DNA from: Ectothiorhodospiraceae bacterium 2226
GTDB lineage: Bacteria > Pseudomonadota > Gammaproteobacteria > GCA-013348725
Assembly: GCA_013348725.1 (NCBI GenBank)
Contig: CP054689.1
Location: 484,501 to 548,500 of the forward strand
Length of the DNA stretch: 64,000 nt
Reading direction: 5' to 3'
Shown: positions 13,963 through 59,851 of the stretch, in pieces
Position numbering within the stretch: position 1 is the first letter of the stretch
Layout: the number at the start of each line of letters is the position of its first letter
Translations under genes and position numbers: made by a program
The notes under the pieces: generated by a model
The model's database searches: none
The model's input: only the letters and a program-made list of their open reading frames with translations
Told to the model about the DNA's origin: nothing

Positions 13963-14292
13963 GACTACTCCGTAAGGTCTCTAGGGGGGTGTCCATCCGC
14001 CTCCCGGCGGTCGCGCTATTCTAACGGTCGCCCCGCAGGCCCACAATCGAGCGCCGTGACCGCGTGCACAAAAAGTCCGCGCAACCCGCCGAACGACCGC
14101 GCGCCGCCCTGCAGAGCCATGGCGCACCGCCGCCGAAGACAAGCCATTGAAAACAAAGTCGGCGGGCATATGGACGCCCGTCTTGATTGGACGCAGACGC
14201 GCGCCAGGGGTTCAGCCGCGACGAGATAGATGGCACGGGAACGGCGCGACATCAGGCCACGCGCCCACAACCGCCGAGAACCCGCAGGGTCC
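13963..14292. other. Non-coding stretch between ndk and repeat locus A
   Basis: About 330 bp with no convincing gene; small frames here lack ribosome binding sites and homologous motifs. It should hold the ndk promoter (minus strand), but no clear -35/-10 pair is visible. By gene-order comparison, this is where hscBA-fdx-iscX would be expected. Confidence 0.5.
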
Positions 14293-14517
14293 GCGGCACA
14301 GGGATGTGCCGCCCGTTTTCGGGGCAACACGCCGAAAACGAAGGAAGGCGAGAACCACGCTTCTCGCCTTCCGTCAGCCGGGGAATCCAGGAGGGATTCA
14401 TCCGGCTTAAAACAGCCGCCGCCCGTTTTCGGGGCAACACGCCGAAAACGAAGGAAGGCGAGAACACGCTTCTCGCCTTCCGTCAGCCGGGGAATCCAGG
14501 AGGGATTCATCCGGCTT
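14293..14517 (+). repeat. Composite four-hairpin repeat, locus A (two units)
   Basis: Unit 1: HP1 14293-14312 (GCGGCACAGGGATGTGCCGC); HP2 14314-14340 (arms CGTTTTCGG/CCGAAAACG); HP3 14343-14372 (12-bp arms GGAAGGCGAGAA/TTCTCGCCTTCC, loop CCACGC); HP4 14376-14408 (arms AGCCGG/CCGGCT and GAATCC/GGATTC). Unit 2 repeats HP2 (14424-14450), HP3 (14453-14481, one loop base lost) and HP4 (14485-14517) 110 bp later but keeps only the right end of HP1. Same architecture as the arrays at 24.3 kb and 40.1 kb, with different stem sequences. Confidence 0.9.
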
Positions 14518-14543
14518 CAAAACAGCGCCATCCCGGCTTGCAA

Positions 14544-24175: not shown

Positions 24176-24263
24176 GCCGGGGTGGCGGAACTGGTAGACG
24201 CGCCTGACTCAAAATCAGGTGGTGGTGACACCGTGGGAGTTCGAGTCTCCCCCTCGGCACCAT
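24176..24263 (+). tRNA. tRNA-Leu (anticodon CAA)
   Basis: 88 nt including an encoded CCA. The acceptor stem GCCGGGG/CCTCGGC has one G-T wobble. The anticodon arm is CCTGA-CTCAAAA-TCAGG with CAA at positions 34-36, reading UUG. A long class II variable arm is followed by the T arm GGGAG-TTCGAGT-CTCCC. A repeat array begins 11 bp after the 3' end, and queA diverges upstream. Confidence 0.96.
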
Positions 24264-24273
24264 TTTATATACG

Positions 24274-24836
24274 GAAGAATCCATCCATGGATTCTTCCTA
24301 GTCGCCCCTTGAAAAGCGTGGTTTTCAAGGGGCTCCCATTATCGGCTGGCGCCGATAATGGCGGCACCTCCCTGTGCCGCGGGGGCGCGGCGGAATCCAT
24401 CCATGGATTCTTCCTAGTCGCCCCTTGAAAAGCGTGGTTTTCAAGGGGCTCCCATTATCGGCTGGCGCCGATAATGGCGGCACCTCCCTGTGCCGCGGGG
24501 GCGCGGCGGAATCCATCCATGGATTCTTCCTAGTCGCCCCTTGAAAAGCGTGGTTTTCAAGGGGCTCCCATTATCGGCTGGCGCCGATAATGGCGGCACC
24601 TCCCTGTGCCGCGAAGGCGCGTCGGGATCCATCCATGGATTCTTCCTGGTCGGCCCCTGAAAAGCGTGGTTTTCAGGGACCTCCCATTTTCGGCGCTTAC
24701 CGAAAATGGCGGCACCTCCCTGTGCCGCGGAGGCGCGTCGGGATCCATCCATGGATTCTTCCTGGTCGGCCCCTGAAAAGCGTGGTTTTCAGGCGCCTCC
24801 ATTTTCGGCGCTGCCGTAGCGGGGCAGTTCCCTGTG
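24274..24836 (-). repeat. Composite four-hairpin repeat, locus B (five 116-bp tandem units)
   Basis: Unit anchors at 24278, 24394, 24510, 24626 and 24742 are exactly 116 bp apart. Read on the minus strand, each unit runs HP1 (GCGGCACAGGGAGGTGCCGC), HP2 (CCATTATCGG/CCGATAATGG), HP3 (12-bp arms GCCCCTTGAAAA/TTTTCAAGGGGC, loop CCACGC) and HP4 (GAATCC/GGATTC around ATGGAT). Units 1 and 2 are identical; unit 3 differs at three positions. Units 4-5 have other stems: HP2 arms CCATTTTCGG/CCGAAAATGG in unit 4, and HP3 changes CCCCTTG to GCCCCTG with paired changes opposite. The outer end near 24800-24836 is decayed. Confidence 0.93.
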
Positions 24837-25105
24837 TTCGCGCCGTCCGACCAGCGGACCCGGACCCTGTTTGGGAACCGATCCTGAGCCCATTGAGCGG
24901 CAATGTCCCGCACCACCTTGGACTGAGCGGCGGGATGGGCGCACAATAGCGATCTTGGCCCGCTTCGGCGATCCGCGGTGCTGGCACCAGTCCCAAATCC
25001 AGTAGGCCCGCCTTCTGCTGCTGATGCGGCACGCGTTATCCTTCGCCAATCCGCCGACACCCGACCCGGCACCCGCTCGGGTCCAATAAGGACGAAAACA
25101 CACCT
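24837..25105. other. Non-coding leader region of glgP
   Basis: About 270 bp between the repeat array and glgP with no gene that I can support. It ends with AAGGAC about 13 nt before the glgP ATG, rather distant for a ribosome binding site. No convincing -35/-10 pair was found. Confidence 0.4.
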
Positions 25106-27664
<2,559 letters not shown>

Positions 27665-27683
27665 GCGCCGCACGGTAACGACG

Positions 27684-27708
27684 GAGGCCGCCCCTGGGCG
27701 GCCTCTTT
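27684..27708 (+). terminator. Intrinsic terminator of glgP
   Basis: GAGGCCGCCC-CT-GGGCGGCCTC followed by TTTC, starting about 20 bp after the glgP stop. Confidence 0.8.
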
Positions 27709-27727
27709 CGTTCATAGCGCACGCAAC

Positions 27728-27752
27728 AAAAAGCCGCCCGAAGGCGGCTTTT
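27728..27752. terminator. Bidirectional terminator between glgP and rhlE
   Basis: AAAAAGCCGCC-CGAA-GGCGGCTTTT: a GC stem with a tetraloop flanked by A and T tracts, able to end transcription from both sides. It lies 48 bp beyond the rhlE stop on the minus strand. Confidence 0.85.
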
Positions 27753-27799
27753 CATTTCACTGCTCTGACCAATCCACGATGGATCTATTCAGGCCTTTC

Positions 27800-29056
27800 T
27801 TAGCTGAAACGCGGCGTGCGTGCAGCGAAGGGTTTCCCTCCGCCGGCACCTCGCTTGCCCTTGTAACCGCCGGGACGGCCACCTGGACGCGCACCGCCGG
27901 GACGGCCCGTCGGCACCGGACGCCGCGGCTCCAGGCCAGGCACGACGGCGTAATCCAGCCGCTTACCCGTGAGCCGCTCGACCTGGCCCAGTCGCCGCCG
28001 ATCCTCGGGACCGATCAGCGAGATCGCGGTGCCGCTTGCGCCCGCGCGACCAGTGCGGCCGATGCGGTGAATGTAATCCTCGGCCACCATCGGCAGATCG
28101 AAGTTGATCACGTGGGTGATGCCGCTGATATCCAGACCGCGCGCGGCCACATCCGTCGCCACCAGCAGGCGCACCTGGCCGCGGCGCATGTTGTCCACCG
28201 TGCGGCGACGGTCACGCTGCGACATGTCGCCGTGCAAGGGCGCGCTGGCATGACCGTTCTGGCTTAGAGCCGCCGAGAGGTCTTCGGCGCCACGCTTGGT
28301 ACCGGTGAAGATCACCGCCTGGGAGAGGTCCGCGTCCTCGATCAGGTGCTTGAGCAACGCCCGCTTGTGCGACACATCGTCCGCCCGGTAAGCGCGCTGA
28401 TCGATGTTGGTGTGCGGCGTCGCGGAGGCCGCCAGTGCGACCTGCGCGGGATCCTTCAGCAGCATACGCGCGACCGACAGCACCCGCCCTTCCAGCGTGG
28501 CCGAGAACAATACGGTCTGGCGCGTGGCCGGCGTGGCGGCGGCAATGTCCTTCACCGCGTCCACGAAGCCCATGTCCAGCATACGGTCGGCTTCGTCCAG
28601 CACCAGCATTTCCAGGCGCGAGAAGTCGACACGCCCGCGCGCCATGTGATCCATCAAACGGCCGGGAGTCGCGACCAGCACGTCCAGCGGCTGCGACAGC
28701 GCACGCTGCTGCGGCGGGTAAGCCATGCCGCCCACGACGGTGGCGAGTTTGACGCGCGAGAAGCGACCCAACTGGCGGAAGTTCTGCTCCACCTGCATGG
28801 CCAGTTCACGCGTCGGGGCGAGCACCAGCACGCGCGGTCCATGGCCGGGGGCGCGAGTTTGCAGGCGCTCCAGAGCCGGCAGCGCGAACGCCGCGGTCTT
28901 GCCGGTGCCCGTCTGGGCCGAGGCCATCAGATCACGGCCCGCGAGCAACACAGGAATCGCCTCCCGCTGAATCGCGGTCGGCACGGTAAATCCACAGCTA
29001 TCGAGCGCGCGCAACAGCGGCTCACTAAGATTCAGGTCATTGAAAGACAAAAGCAT
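27800..29056 (-). CDS. rhlE: DEAD-box ATP-dependent RNA helicase, RhlE-like
   Basis: RNA helicase for RNA remodelling. The 418 residues start at ATG 29056 (MLLSFNDLNLSEPLLRAL), preceded by GAGGGG. Motifs: Q motif with TPTAIQREAIP, ASAQTGTGKT (I), PTRELA (Ia), DEAD as VLDEADRML (II), SATL (III), VATDVAARGLDISG (V) and HRIGRTGRAG (VI). The tail is Gly/Arg/Lys-rich (RPGGARPGGRPGGYKGKRG), typical for RNA binding. A leader of up to 285 nt with strong hairpins precedes it. It is inserted between two groups of glycogen genes. Confidence 0.93.
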   Translation of the reverse strand: MLLSFNDLNLSEPLLRALDSCGFTVPTAIQREAIPVLLAGRDLMASAQTGTGKTAAFALPALERLQTRAPGHGPRVLVLAPTRELAMQVEQNFRQLGRFSRVKLATVVGGMAYPPQQRALSQPLDVLVATPGRLMDHMARGRVDFSRLEMLVLDEADRMLDMGFVDAVKDIAAATPATRQTVLFSATLEGRVLSVARMLLKDPAQVALAASATPHTNIDQRAYRADDVSHKRALLKHLIEDADLSQAVIFTGTKRGAEDLSAALSQNGHASAPLHGDMSQRDRRRTVDNMRRGQVRLLVATDVAARGLDISGITHVINFDLPMVAEDYIHRIGRTGRAGASGTAISLIGPEDRRRLGQVERLTGKRLDYAVVPGLEPRRPVPTGRPGGARPGGRPGGYKGKRGAGGGKPFAARTPRFS

Positions 29057-29341
29057 ACCCCTCGCCCGCCATGCCACTGGACGAGCGCAAACGAATGATT
29101 GACAGTAGGCGAACTACGGTGGCTGTAGCGACCGCCCGGTCTCGTGGCGCCTGGGGCGCCCGGTCTTCTAAGACCGCGACACCTGTCGACGCATACGTCG
29201 CTAACCGCGAAGCCGGAGGTGGGAAAGGAACCGGAGGAGGGTCAGGAACGCTGGGGGCGGAGTATAACCGCCGCGCGGCCAAAAAGCGAGCAGCAGCCGC
29301 AGGTCGGGGCGCGCGTTCCGCAATGCCCCTTCAACACCCAG
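29057..29341 (-). promoter_or_regulatory. Structured leader/promoter region of rhlE
   Basis: This 285-bp gap has no gene. On the minus strand TTATACT near 29268 could be a -10 element, giving a leader of roughly 200 nt. The region holds two strong hairpins: GGCGCC-TGG-GGCGCC near 29149-29163 and CGGTCTT-CTA-AAGACCG-type pairing near 29160-29176. Long leaders are common for cold-responsive helicases, but that role here is inferred. Confidence 0.35.
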
Positions 29342-30826
29342 CTAGTCCCGCGGCGGCAACCGGCCGTAGAGTCCCGCCAGGTGCAACAGGTGGCCGGCCT
29401 TGTCCTCGACCCCGTCCTCCCAGCGGAAGCGCCAGCGCCAGTTCCCCTCGGAGGTGCCCGGAGTGTTCATGCGCTGCTCGCTGCCGAGTTCCAGCACGTC
29501 CTGCAGCGGCACCACCGCGAGGCGTGCCACCGACGCCGTGACCGCGCGGATCAGGGGCCAGGGCATGGGCTCCTCCGGGCGCCCGAGGTATTCATGGATA
29601 GCGGCCTGCTCGTCCTCCCCGAGTTCGGCATACCAGCCCATGGTGGTGTCATTGTCATGCGTGCCGGTGTAGGCCACACAGTTGGGGCGGTAGTTGTGCG
29701 GCAGGTAGGGATTCTCCGGGCCGCCGTCGAAGGCGAACTGCAGGATGGTCATCCCCGGCAGCTGAAACTGATCCCGCAGCGCGCGCACCTCGTCGGTAAT
29801 GAGGCCGAGGTCCTCGGCCACCAGCGGCAGCGGATCAAAGTGCTTGTGCAACTCCTCGAACAAGGCCTCGCCCGGCGCCTTGACCCAGTGGCCGTCGACC
29901 GCGGTCTCCGCCTCGCCCGGGATGTCCCAGTAGGCCTCGAAGCCGCGGAAGTGGTCGATACGTACCAGATCGAACTGGCGCAACTGGGTGCGCAGGCGCT
30001 CGCGCCACCAGGCAAAACCATCTTGCTCCATGCGATCCCAGCGGTAGTGCGGGTTGCCCCAGCGCTGCCCGGTTTTGGAGAAGTAATCGGGCGGCACCCC
30101 CGCCACGCGCGCCGCATTACCCTCGTCGTCCAGCGCGAAGTACTCGCGCTGCGCCCACACGTCGGCGCTGTCGTGCGCGACGAAGATCGGCACGTCGCCG
30201 AACACCAGGATGCCGTTGTCGTTCGCATAGCGTTTGACGGCGTCCCATTGGGTGAAAAACACCCATTGTTCGAAGCGGGCCTGCTCCACATCGCGGGCCA
30301 GCCGCGCGCGCGCCTCGGCCAGCGCCTGCGGCTCACGGTCGCGCAGCGGCACCGGCCATTGCATCCACCCCTTGGCCTGTTGCTCGAGGCGCACCGCCTG
30401 ATACAGCGCGTAATCGTCCAGCCAACTCGCCTCCTCGGCACAGAAGCGCTCCATGGCGTGATGCTGCGCCTCGGTGCCGTGGGTGCGAAACGCGCGGTAG
30501 GCCTCGCGCAGCAGGCGTTCATGGTGCGCTTGATCGCCGCCGTGGGCGGCCTCGGCCGGCAGCCAACCCGCGGCCACCAGTTCCTCGATGCTGATCAAGC
30601 GCGGGTTGCCCGCGTGCACGGACAGGCACTGGTAGGGTGAGCGGTTGTCGTGCGTGGGCCCGAGCGGCAGGATCTGCCACACGCCCTGCCCGGCGCGTAC
30701 CAGAAAGTCCACGAAGCGCCGCGCATGCGGGCCCAGGTGGCCGTACTCCCAGGCACCCGGCAGCGAGGTCGGATGCAGCAGAATGCCCGCCATGCGGCGG
30801 GGCAGTACCTCATTGCGCACCACCAT
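29342..30826 (-). CDS. malQ: 4-alpha-glucanotransferase (GH77)
   Basis: Amylomaltase that rearranges alpha-1,4-glucans during maltodextrin/glycogen turnover. It is 494 residues, the typical bacterial type: GILLHPTSLPGAWEYGHLG, SPYQCLSVHAGNPRLIS, nucleophile region VRIDHFRGFEAYWDIP, acid/base LVAEDLGLIT, and YTGTHDNDTTMGWY. The ATG at 30826 shares one base with the stop of the upstream GH57 gene (TGATG), so the two are translationally coupled. Confidence 0.96.
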   Translation of the reverse strand: MVVRNEVLPRRMAGILLHPTSLPGAWEYGHLGPHARRFVDFLVRAGQGVWQILPLGPTHDNRSPYQCLSVHAGNPRLISIEELVAAGWLPAEAAHGGDQAHHERLLREAYRAFRTHGTEAQHHAMERFCAEEASWLDDYALYQAVRLEQQAKGWMQWPVPLRDREPQALAEARARLARDVEQARFEQWVFFTQWDAVKRYANDNGILVFGDVPIFVAHDSADVWAQREYFALDDEGNAARVAGVPPDYFSKTGQRWGNPHYRWDRMEQDGFAWWRERLRTQLRQFDLVRIDHFRGFEAYWDIPGEAETAVDGHWVKAPGEALFEELHKHFDPLPLVAEDLGLITDEVRALRDQFQLPGMTILQFAFDGGPENPYLPHNYRPNCVAYTGTHDNDTTMGWYAELGEDEQAAIHEYLGRPEEPMPWPLIRAVTASVARLAVVPLQDVLELGSEQRMNTPGTSEGNWRWRFRWEDGVEDKAGHLLHLAGLYGRLPPRD

Positions 30827-32506
30827 CAGTGGCTCCGCCGCATGGCGCCGCCATGTTCGGGCGCCCCGCCGCCGTGCGAGAGCACGTGCGTGAGGTCCTC
30901 CGGCGGTTCGTCACCGATCAATTGATAAAGGTTGGCGAGGTGCAGGCGGAACAGGCGCTCGAAATCGCTCACCGACTCCGCGGCGTTGTAGTCACCGAAC
31001 CACCAAAACCAATCGGAGCCCTCGCACACGGCGAGCTGACGCTCGGCCGCTGCCAGGCGCTCACCGCTGAGGCGGCCCTGGGCAACCGCCTGGTCGAAGG
31101 CCTGCTTGGCCGCGCCGAGCAGATCCCAGCCGCGATTCTTGTCGCTCTCGCCGATCCAGGTCGAGAAGGTGCCGTACACCCAGCTGCCGCTGACCAGCCG
31201 GGGCAGCGTGGCCGCCTCGGGCGCGCGCGCCAATAGCTCTGCGTAGGTGGTGAGTTCGAGTTGCGGGTGCTCGGCCAGGCGCCGGTACAGCCCGCGCAGG
31301 AAGTGGTAACCGTTTTGCGGATAATGCTCCCAGGCGTTCTCGCCGTCCATGATGATGGACACCACCGGCGCGGCCTCTGCGCTGCATGCGTTCGCCACCT
31401 CTTCCAGGTGGTGTACGAGGTTGTTCACGGCATCGTCTCCATGCCAGTCCGAATAGGTGAAGCCGATCAGATCGGACAGGCCATCGTCCCTGAAAAAACA
31501 GTGCAGGCCCTCTACGTCCTGGACGCGGTAGGCGCGGTGCGGACACTCGCCGGCGCCGCGCTCCGCCGCCGCCTGCGAGTTGCCAAGCACGGTGCCGCCG
31601 CTTGCCGCCCAGCGAAAGCCGTACTCGGCCAACAGCTTCAGTGTAGCCACGCTGACCGCCCCTTCCGAGGGCCAGCAGCCGGCCGGTCGGTGCCCGAACG
31701 CGCGCTCGAACACCTGGAGACCGCGCTCGATGTGCCAGCGCGTACGTGCCTCCCCGCCGGGATACTGGGGGAGCAGCGGCCGCGCGAATCCCGGCATGGC
31801 GTCCTCGGCGCTGCCGAGATCGAGCAACAGCGGGACAATGGGATGGGCATAGGGCGAGGTGGCGAGTTCGACCTGGCCGCGCTCGGCCAGCCGCCGGTAG
31901 CGCGGCAGCAGGTCCTCCAGCAGATCCTTGATCAGCCCCATCAGCAGCCGGCGGTCGTGCAGCGTGTAGGCACGGGCCTTCTTGATCAGCTGCTGGGCGC
32001 GCGGCTCGGCCATGCGCACGGTCTCGCCCAGCCAGACCAAGTGGTACCACACCACCAGGTCGGCGAAGTACTCATCGGCGAGATAATCCACGCTGTGCGG
32101 GTGATCGAGCGCGAAGCGGCCCAGTTCGGCCAGCTCCGCCAAGGGCGTAAACGGCTGGATCATGCGCGCCTCATTGGCGCGCAGGCAGGTGCGGATCAGT
32201 CCTAGGCGCGCCTCGCGCCCCGTGGGCAGCGCCGCGGCGTCCAGTGCCGCCAGCAAGGGATCGCGCACCGCGCCTTCGCCCGCCAGGTGGGCGCGCACCT
32301 GCGCGGCGTAGTCCTCGATCTGCTCAATCAGGATGGGGGCGAAGTTCACCACCGCGCGCGCCTCGGGCTGTTGCTCCAGCAGCGCGGCCATGTCGACGTA
32401 GTCCTTGATGGCGTGCAGGTAGGTCCACGGCTGGAGATACTCCCCGCTGACCAGGTCTTTGTACTGCGGCTGGTGCATGTGCCAACACAACACCACCGGC
32501 AAGCGT

Positions 32507-32517
<11 letters not shown>
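30826..32517 (-). CDS. Glycoside hydrolase family 57 protein
   Basis: A 563-residue GH57 protein acting on alpha-glucan; the family includes amylases, 4-alpha-glucanotransferases and branching enzymes. The start is ATG 32517 (MPAKRLPVVLCWHMHQPQYKDL). Visible motifs: HMHQP (motif 1), SPYAHPIVPLLLDLG (motif 2), GCWPSEGAVSVATLKLL with the likely nucleophile Glu (motif 3), GFTYSDWHGDDAVNNL with a candidate acid Asp (motif 4), and VSIIMDGENAWEHYPQNG (motif 5). It overlaps glgC by 11 bp and malQ by 1 bp. No glgA or glgB is in the window, so it could supply branching, but specificity is not decidable here. Confidence 0.9.
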
Positions 32518-33775
<1,258 letters not shown>

Positions 33776-39997: not shown

Positions 39998-40107
39998 AGC
40001 GATGATCCGTACTCAAGGGGATGGAAAAACGCATCACTATACGATGCGCGCGCCATCCATGGGAACCGGCCAAGGAAGCGCCGATCCCAGAACGCTCCAG
40101 ACTTCCC

Positions 40108-40340
40108 GCGGCACAGGGATGTGCCGCCGTGAGCAACGGCGCAAGCCGTTGCTCACGAAGCAGGGCGAAAACCACGCTTTTCGCCCTGCGTGGTCTGAGC
40201 CATCCAGGACGGATGGATTCAGACCTGCCAAACGGGCGCCGCCGTGAGCAACGGCGCAAGCCGTTGCTCACGAAGCAGGGCGAAAACCACGCTTTTCGCC
40301 CTGCGTGGTCTGAGCCATCCAGGACGGATGGATTCAGACC
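40108..40340 (+). repeat. Composite four-hairpin repeat, locus C (two units)
   Basis: Unit 1: HP1 40108-40127 (GCGGCACAGGGATGTGCCGC); HP2 40128-40157 (12-bp arms CGTGAGCAACGG/CCGTTGCTCACG); HP3 40160-40189 (arms GCAGGGCGAAAA/TTTTCGCCCTGC, loop CCACGC); HP4 40192-40225 (arms GGTCTGA/TCAGACC and CCATCC/GGATGG). Unit 2 repeats HP2-HP4 at 40243-40340, 115 bp later, with only the right edge of HP1. It ends 4 bp before the rimI stop. Confidence 0.92.
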
Positions 40341-40343
40341 TTC

Positions 40344-40799
40344 TTACAGCGGCTTGGACAGGACCAAGGCGTCCTCGCGCCCGCGCTGGGCCGGATAATA
40401 GGCCGGCCGGCGACCGATCTCTTTGAAGCCCAACCCGCGATAGAGCTCCACGGCCGAGCGATTCGACTTGCGCACTTCCAAAAAAGTCACCTGCGCCCGA
40501 CTGCCGCGCGCCCGCGCCAACAAATGCTCGAGCAGGCGCCGACCGATGCCCTGGCGCTGGTGCTGCGGGTCGACGCAGAGATTGAGGATGTGCGCTTCCC
40601 CCGCGGCCACCGACATAATGCCGTAGCCGACCGGCCATCCCTCGCGCACGTACACCCAGCAGTCGTAGCCCACCTGCAGACAGTCGCGGAAGATGCCGAC
40701 CGTCCAGGGGTAGGCATACGCGCTGCACTCGATGTCCATGACGGCATCGAGGTCGCGCAGCTCCATGCGGCGTAGGGCCTCGCCGGGTTCGGCGCTCAA
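40344..40799 (-). CDS. rimI: Ribosomal protein bS18-alanine N-acetyltransferase RimI
   Basis: GNAT acetyltransferase that modifies the N-terminus of ribosomal protein bS18. From a TTG at 40799 that overlaps the upstream stop (TTGA) and follows GCGAGG it is 151 residues. The ATG at 40766 (140 residues) is the alternative. It shows MDIECSAYAYPWTVGIFRDCL, the acetyl-CoA site ILNLCVDPQHQRQGIGRRLLEHLL, and NRSAVELYRGLGFKEIGRRPAYY. The udg-rimI order is a common pairing. Confidence 0.9.
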   Translation of the reverse strand: MSAEPGEALRRMELRDLDAVMDIECSAYAYPWTVGIFRDCLQVGYDCWVYVREGWPVGYGIMSVAAGEAHILNLCVDPQHQRQGIGRRLLEHLLARARGSRAQVTFLEVRKSNRSAVELYRGLGFKEIGRRPAYYPAQRGREDALVLSKPL

Positions 40800-59068: not shown

Positions 59069-59135
59069 AGCAGCGGCGCCTGCCAGACCGTCCCCAAGTT
59101 CTGCCCTCGGGAAGCTTTGTTTTATGCCGTCACCT

Positions 59136-59155
59136 GCGGCACACGGATGTGCCGC
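59136..59155 (+). repeat. Lone HP1 copy of the composite repeat
   Basis: GCGGCACACGGATGTGCCGC, one base different from HP1 of loci A and C, followed by CGTGA as in locus C, then unrelated sequence. It sits in the gap between the convergent DUF2069 and hda genes and looks like a solo or decayed copy. Confidence 0.72.
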
Positions 59156-59170
59156 CGTGATCGACCTTTC

Positions 59171-59851
59171 TCAGTCGCGCGCGGCAATGACGCCGCGCAC
59201 GAACGGTATCGTCACACGGCGCTGGGCAGCGAGGGAGGCCCTGTCGAGTCGATCGAGCAAGGCGCACAAGGCCGGCAGATCGCGGCGCCAATGGCGCAGT
59301 AGGAACCAAGCGACTTCCTCGCTCACGTCCAACCCGCGACGCGCCCCCTGACGGCGCAGCGCGTGCACCTTATCCGCGTCATCCAGCGGCTCCAGGTGGA
59401 ACACCGCGCAGGCGCTCAAACGCGAGCGCAGGTCCGCCAACCCAAGGGGCAACGCCTGGGGCGGGGCCGCCGCCGCGAATACCAGACGCCCCCCGCCGGC
59501 CGACACCTCGTTGTACAGCCCGAACAGCGCCGCTTCCCAAGCGGGCTGACCGGCCACGGCGTCGAGATCGTCGACGCACACCAGCGCGATCGATTCCAGG
59601 CCCGCCGCCATCGCCGGGGCAAGTGCGGGCTCGTGCAACGGCAGGTACGCGCTGCTCGCCTGCGCGTTCGCGGCCTCCGCGCAAGCCGCCTGCAGCAGAT
59701 GACTCTTGCCGGTCCCCGGCGCACCCCACAGATAGATCAAACGCTCCGGCCCGCGCAGCGCCGCCAGCGCGGCGCCGTTGGCGCCCGCCTCGAAGTGCTC
59801 GAAGGTCGGCGCACCGGCGAGCGCCATGCGCAAAGGCAGCTGATGGCTCAT
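59171..59851 (-). CDS. hda: DnaA regulatory inactivator Hda
   Basis: AAA+ protein that, with the beta clamp, stimulates ATP hydrolysis by DnaA after initiation. It is 226 residues from ATG 59851. The N-terminal clamp-binding motif reads QLPLRM. AAA+ motifs: LWGAPGTGKSHLLQ (Walker A), CVDDLDAV (Walker B), and the DLRSRLSACAVFHLEPLDD sensor/arginine-finger region. It overlaps the pgsA-like gene (ATGA). Confidence 0.93.
   Translation of the reverse strand: MSHQLPLRMALAGAPTFEHFEAGANGAALAALRGPERLIYLWGAPGTGKSHLLQAACAEAANAQASSAYLPLHEPALAPAMAAGLESIALVCVDDLDAVAGQPAWEAALFGLYNEVSAGGGRLVFAAAAPPQALPLGLADLRSRLSACAVFHLEPLDDADKVHALRRQGARRGLDVSEEVAWFLLRHWRRDLPALCALLDRLDRASLAAQRRVTIPFVRGVIAARD

Follow-up and report, generated by a model that had tools for sequence, protein, structure and literature searches.

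A tandem hairpin array in Ectothiorhodospiraceae bacterium 2226 is probably a decayed MITE-like element and a candidate CsrA-binding RNA

Dispersed structured repeats of about 100–150 bp, modular or tandem in form, include the pneumococcal BOX and enterobacterial ERIC sequences. The element considered here is set apart from these by description, as it occurs in other taxa and has other ends and another hairpin architecture. It also differs from integron attC arrays, for no genes lie between the units of its array and the direct target duplications of the family point elsewhere. To our knowledge, it is rare for a MITE to have both a clear transposon anatomy and strong covariation of the RNA-like kind. 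Like IS5-family MITEs, the element is short, has no transposase gene, has ends of the form GGAAnnTCTGA and YTAR-type duplications, and is accompanied by an IS5-family partner in element-rich genomes. Unlike them, each end is a hairpin with an inverted repeat, the body consists of three covarying hairpins and other types of end are found. It is thus a MITE-like element whose conserved body of several hairpins is unusual and whose ends are exchangeable.

The accessible part of the account of Coxiella burnetii QMITE1 and QMITE2 presents them as MITEs with strong transcript structure, some of which are transcribed as small RNAs, QMITE2 being about 190 bp with duplications of 7–9 bp (PMC5896051). 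Neither a covarying multi-hairpin body nor GGA loops are described in that part of the account (PMC5896051), and the present element is set apart from both by description. REP/BIME sequences with their RAYT partner are likewise dispersed intergenic palindromes that are often clustered (PMC2817692), whereas the element here has target duplications and an IS5-type partner. A RAYT/REP origin was rejected, as element motifs are absent within 1.5 kb of three Y1_Tnp loci (L060–L062). CsrB/RsmZ-type sponge RNAs share with the element their repeated A(N)GGA hairpin loops, and its first hairpin carries the high-affinity ANGGAX hexaloop (PMC4005645). Unlike these RNAs, the element is mobile, occurs in many copies per genome and has no Rfam match; no promoter was found for it, and its binding by CsrA is predicted.

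The array lies in a window of 64,000 nucleotides, the whole stretch of DNA that was analysed (CP054689.1, positions 484,501 to 548,500), to which unlabelled coordinates refer. Five tandem units of the element body, each with the hairpins HP1-HP2-HP3-HP4, occupy 24266..24842 on the minus strand. TRF reports a repeat at 24277–24809 with a period of 116, 4.6 copies, 94% match and no indels, and model R2 places the minus-strand units at 24266–24381, 24382–24497, 24498–24613, 24614–24729 and 24730–24842. Unit anchors lie at 24278+116n. On the minus strand units 1 and 2 agree throughout (116/116), and unit 1 has 113, 100 and 73 of 116 positions in common with units 3, 4 and 5, respectively. The sequence-only reading, which had described five 116-bp units of four hairpins each with the first two identical, is confirmed by TRF, unit comparison and folding; the folding z-scores of minus-strand units 1, 3 and 4 range from -5.2 to -5.6.

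In unit 1, HP1 (24361..24380, minus strand) reads GCGGCAC-AGGGAG-GTGCCGC and so has a CsrA/RsmA-type ANGGAN hexaloop; a motif scan finds the HP1 motif in the array at 24364, 24480, 24596 and 24712. HP2 (24336..24361, minus) is a variable stem and HP3 (24304..24333, minus) has the invariant core AAAA-CCACGC-TTTT. HP4 (24273..24298, minus) has the loop ATGGAT and takes the place of the terminal-repeat hairpin of full copies. Paired changes are seen in unit 4, where an A/T pair of HP2 becomes T/A and, in HP3, an outer C-G pair becomes G-C and an inner T-A pair becomes C-G, on both sides of the stem. The HP3 changes are as originally reported; the paired HP2 change had been claimed for units 4 and 5 and is clean in unit 4, whereas unit 5 is degenerate, with the 3' arm of HP2 and HP1 both broken. 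At a further HP3 position of the array the minus strand has U-G and the plus strand C-A. On one side the array is flanked by a tRNA-Leu(CAA) gene (24176..24262, plus strand), whose transcription is antisense to the GGA-loop strand. A glycogen/glucan metabolism cluster also lies beside the array (window 25106–32691), comprising alpha-glucan phosphorylase, 4-alpha-glucanotransferase-like and glycoside-hydrolase-like genes, with a Pfam check that covered the phosphorylase only.

Two further window loci, each of two tandem units on the plus strand, share the hairpins of the array and their order; they lie at 14292..14521 and 40107..40344. The latter is the best-preserved copy in the window, and its 3' end abuts a TTA that is the stop codon of an opposite-strand gene. 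A degenerate copy at 59135..59255 (plus strand; model 21.7 bits, E 4e-4) retains HP1 and the start of HP2, the rest being deleted. The initial inspection had found the array but missed these two loci, the fragment and the copies elsewhere in the genome. A search of the 2.96-Mb genome for the HP3 core AAAACCACGCTTTT gives 72 matches with up to 2 mismatches, compared with 3 for a reversed control, and most of these matches fall in one four-hairpin unit. A covariance model built on 23 copies gives 109 matches in this genome at E <= 0.01, a number that includes a few antisense echoes of strong copies; in round figures the genome has about 100 model matches. Copies are both single and tandem. A six-unit tandem array is found just downstream of a tRNA-Ser-like sequence (G000:C1:13810-14534, L057) and is the second array beside a tRNA gene. 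At G000:C1:549319-550129 (L056) there is a composite array of a diverged subfamily, in which full and partial units alternate and are separated by an additional block of GC-rich hairpin sequence. Minimal derivatives, consisting of end hairpins only with or without HP1, occur at about 764.6 kb and 254.0 kb of G000:C1 (L066 and L065), flanked by CTAG or TTAG-like sequence.

What the earlier inspection had not recognised is that the array unit represents one piece of a mobile element with five hairpins, full copies of which are found in relatives. These have the order HP0-HP1-HP2-HP3-HP4, measure about 150–164 bp between duplications and contain no transposase gene. HP0 is an extra hairpin upstream of HP1 in many copies (e.g. 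GGAAGCTCTGATTTATTCAGAGCTTCC), and its 5' arm together with the 3' arm of HP4 forms the terminal inverted repeats, giving paired ends of GGAAnnTCTGA type or of other types. Amongst GGAA-type copies, 18 of 30 have perfect 4-bp target duplications (shuffled mean 4.6, maximum 11 in 2000), which are of YTAR type and mostly TTAA, TTAG, CTAG or TTCA. Copies with CAGGCTGTTGAAAAA-type ends have CTAG or CTAA duplications in five of six cases, where shuffles give 3.5, the target being so constant. Those with GAGGGTGTCGCAAAA-type ends have 5-bp duplications in 3/3 cases (TCTTA, AATCA and TCGAA), which points to a different transposase; copies with this same hairpin body, these ends and 5-bp target duplications were seen at L107, L117 and L124/L163 (G009, JALSHZ010000018). 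The same body therefore carries three kinds of ends across lineages. Ends and duplications are also retained by internal-deletion derivatives that lack HP2-HP3 and by solo HP0 hairpins, and the genome of strain 2226 itself has two near-identical copies at different sites (86295 and 2839935), each between TTAG repeats.

A likely source of transposase is found in the element-rich genomes G127, G264, G093 and G306, which contain an IS, multi-copy or single, with the same end type and YTAR-type duplications. The transposases of these IS score 326–353 bits against the NCBIfam IS5 family NF033581 (cutoff 140). Relatives thus show inverted repeats, YTAR duplications, the lack of an own transposase and, in four other genomes, an autonomous partner, which together characterise MITEs. 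That IS5-family IS share this kind of end indicates that the elements are non-autonomous transposons, and the family is very probably a MITE-like, non-autonomous transposable element of about 150 bp, which an IS5-type transposase would move in trans. The ends of IS and element match best within one and the same genome in G264 and G306 but not in the other two of the four, and the exact pairing is therefore unproven. No IS with element-type ends lies within 1.5 kb of the two PF01609 genes of the strain 2226 genome, and no partner IS with CAGGCTGTTGAAAAA ends was found among 20 loci. An IS5-family element in G127 adjoins an apparent CRISPR array that had been read as a repetitive ORF (L316:171-1169, minus strand; VHPRVRGEH/FIPACAGN repeats). 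In the window copies HP0 and target duplications are missing and the ends are decayed, so that mobility, which is strongly supported in relatives, is for these copies inferred from the relatives.

The elements insert in intergenic DNA in either orientation. In the strain 2226 genome, crude gene calls place a gene on the opposite strand beyond the 3' end at 23 of 34 loci, its stop codon usually within about 20 bp, and insertion at gene ends follows from the target, because YTAR contains TAA or TAG. HP0 and HP4 have 3' arms that repeat each other almost exactly in direct orientation and stand in an equal position before HP1, which offers a simple route to both tandem arrays and solo hairpins. 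As judged from the sequences, unequal recombination or slippage between these arms would generate head-to-tail (HP1-HP4)n arrays with the observed period of 110–125 bp, and deletion would leave a solo HP0. Since arrays would arise from these arm repeats and insertion is governed by target choice, the tRNA-Leu neighbour of the window array looks incidental.

The hairpin structure is very probably maintained, by paired substitution. Amongst the 23 copies from the strain 2226 genome there are 107 double-change cells, with double changes in 25 of 46 pairs; none of 500 shuffles reaches the observed structure values, and sliding the partner column by one to three positions reduces paired cells from 90% to 36–45%. 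Across species (83 sequences), 94.5% of cells are paired, double changes occur in 44 of 46 pairs and the covariation score is 0.571 compared with 0.156 when shuffled. As plain shuffles ignore relatedness, an R-scape-like, tree-based test was added, an in-house procedure distinct from R-scape and run on a model-fitted alignment of 109 sequences less than 95% identical. It places 1558 substitutions by parsimony on a FastTree topology, reshuffles them among columns on each branch and scores pairs with an APC-corrected G statistic. In this test 22 of 46 structure pairs are significant at E <= 0.05 (HP2 7, HP3 6, HP4 9, HP1 0), as against a single other pair, which supports the proposal of selection on structure; covariation beyond phylogenetic expectation is present and the copies are not duplicates of one sequence. 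The absence of significant covariation from HP1 is consistent with its low variation. The single other pair lies within the HP3 hexaloop YCRCRY, whose positions 1 and 5 covary as C-G or T-A and would form an extra pair inside this loop of invariant length. On the sense strand G-T exceeds A-C by 155:68, a weak signal, since the alignment was fitted to an RNA model, but one that is suggestive of strand-specific constraint.

The best overall explanation, and a likely one, is that the array represents a MITE-like element which has decayed and been amplified in tandem, with maintained hairpins, and a candidate CsrA-binding RNA. The body would work when transcribed, with CsrA/RsmA as its partner, and in read-through transcripts the element could provide a mobile binding site, or a decoy, for CsrA. 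The chances that the body functions at the RNA level are about even. CsrA/RsmA is the most likely partner because HP1 carries an ANGGAN hexaloop on its stem and A(N)GGA is usual in HP4, and as a prediction from sequence its biological role here is possible rather than probable. The SELEX consensus of CsrA is RUACARGGAUGU, mostly in six-base loops (PMC7652899), and a high-affinity RsmE site is an ANGGAX hexaloop that sits immediately on a stem and leaves N and X free (PMC4005645). The HP1 loop reads C-ANGGAN-G on its stem, and only N and X vary. The scan pattern had fixed the A and GGA of HP1, so that the fair check is provided by copies found through HP3 alone; the predicted folds of these 67 copies place A(N)GGA in a loop around HP1 in 43 cases and around HP4 in 47, and model-found copies in other genomes agree on the GGA loops.

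Co-occurrence with csrA was ruled out as support for CsrA binding, there being no association: csrA is missing from 9/67 carriers and 47/302 non-carriers and, in high-quality genomes, from 3/59 carriers and 31/255 non-carriers, and is not commoner with the element. The GGA loops persist in one genome that is 95% complete and in which csrA was not found (G125), loci being assigned to genomes by scores. Orientation gives no support for a sense 3'-UTR role, as the upstream gene is co-directional with the element at 17 of 34 loci in the strain 2226 genome, an even split. A search of the minus strand at the window array revealed no sigma-70-like promoter, and matches to an intrinsic terminator or promoter there are at chance level.

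It is possible, though not probable, that the hairpins matter as DNA, with single strands or cruciforms helping the transposase to find, pair or cut the ends, so that the body is kept for transposition and has no RNA function. Such a role would suit the construction of HP0 and HP4 from the terminal repeat, the abundance of near-identical copies in some genomes, the single body with three kinds of ends and intergenic insertion in both orientations. However, derivatives without HP2-HP3 lie in perfect duplications, so that the full body appears dispensable unless it was deleted afterwards, and loop sequences are conserved on one strand. We know of no need for hairpins in DDE transposons of the IS5 kind, which also counts against a DNA-level role.

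An unlikely alternative is that the element acts as a hairpin block in 3' UTRs, an RNase barrier or weak terminator in the manner of REP/BIME and with no protein partner. The folds are very stable and at many loci the element ends about 20 bp or less from a stop codon, but the YTAR target alone accounts for that proximity, no T-run terminator is present except for one chance-level match, and the invariant loops are left unexplained. Hairpin-templated mutation correction, a known mutational process that the sequence-only reading had put forward as another cause of symmetric stems, would make covariation a by-product without selection. It may contribute to stem symmetry, and several subfamilies have long perfect stems. 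It is nonetheless improbable, and disfavoured, as the cause of the pattern, for order, spacing and loops are conserved across many families, including the loops of HP1, HP3 and HP4; the asymmetric internal loop of HP4, G against AT, is kept across GGAA-type lineages; and the covariation of positions 1 and 5 in the HP3 hexaloop lies outside the stem register. That the window array is a dedicated multi-unit sponge sRNA gene of CsrB/RsmZ type is very improbable, for although up to ten GGA-bearing hairpins lie on one strand and a glycogen/glucan phosphorylase gene comes next on that side, from a type of pathway under known Csr control in E. coli, the array has no detectable minus-strand promoter and no Rfam sRNA match above chance (RsmV at about E 1), unit 5 is decayed, HP4 misfolds in units 4 and 5, and HP1 is missing from some MFE folds of units 1, 2 and 4.

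A second covariance model finds the element at E <= 1e-7 in 67 of 369 sampled gammaproteobacterial genomes (~18%, about one in six). The richest have at least 130 matches (G127, a single contig), 104 (G093) and 63 (G312), and the complete genome G127 holds many near-identical copies. Among the matches listed from a pattern scan of species genomes are Pseudohongiella, Solimonas aquatica, Halothiobacillus, Marinobacter, Woeseiaceae, Chromatiales and Thiotrichales, together with one MAG labelled Nitrospirae, the remaining records listed being gammaproteobacterial. Copies in this MAG (NC_groundwater_1776; L164, L168 and L181) have CTAG duplications, and reflect either spread beyond the Gammaproteobacteria or a mislabelled or contaminated bin. 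Carriage by plasmids, phages or viral contigs was discounted, there being no element match in those sets. The array has no Rfam match at gathering, no such family exists in Rfam 15, and a search with Rfam sRNAs gave nothing above chance for the array and none in four other loci. Literature searches for a prior description returned only other MITE families, and the element family is apparently undescribed so far.

A structured repeat that reaches more than 100 matches in some genomes is thus absent from both Rfam 15 and the literature searched. The element joins RNA-like covariation, transposon anatomy and a loop that matches the site of a master regulator. A further and rather unlikely reading is that it is a selfish structured RNA, whose conserved three-hairpin body has in gammaproteobacteria acquired ends of at least three transposon types and binds CsrA/RsmA when transcribed, so that its spread perturbs or tunes the post-transcriptional network of the host; if this were true, spread would add decoy or cis sites. 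If the element is not transcribed, a DNA transposon can evolve strong covariation, which would be a caution for RNA-discovery pipelines. If it is transcribed, mobile DNA would be spreading ready-made regulatory RNA sites.
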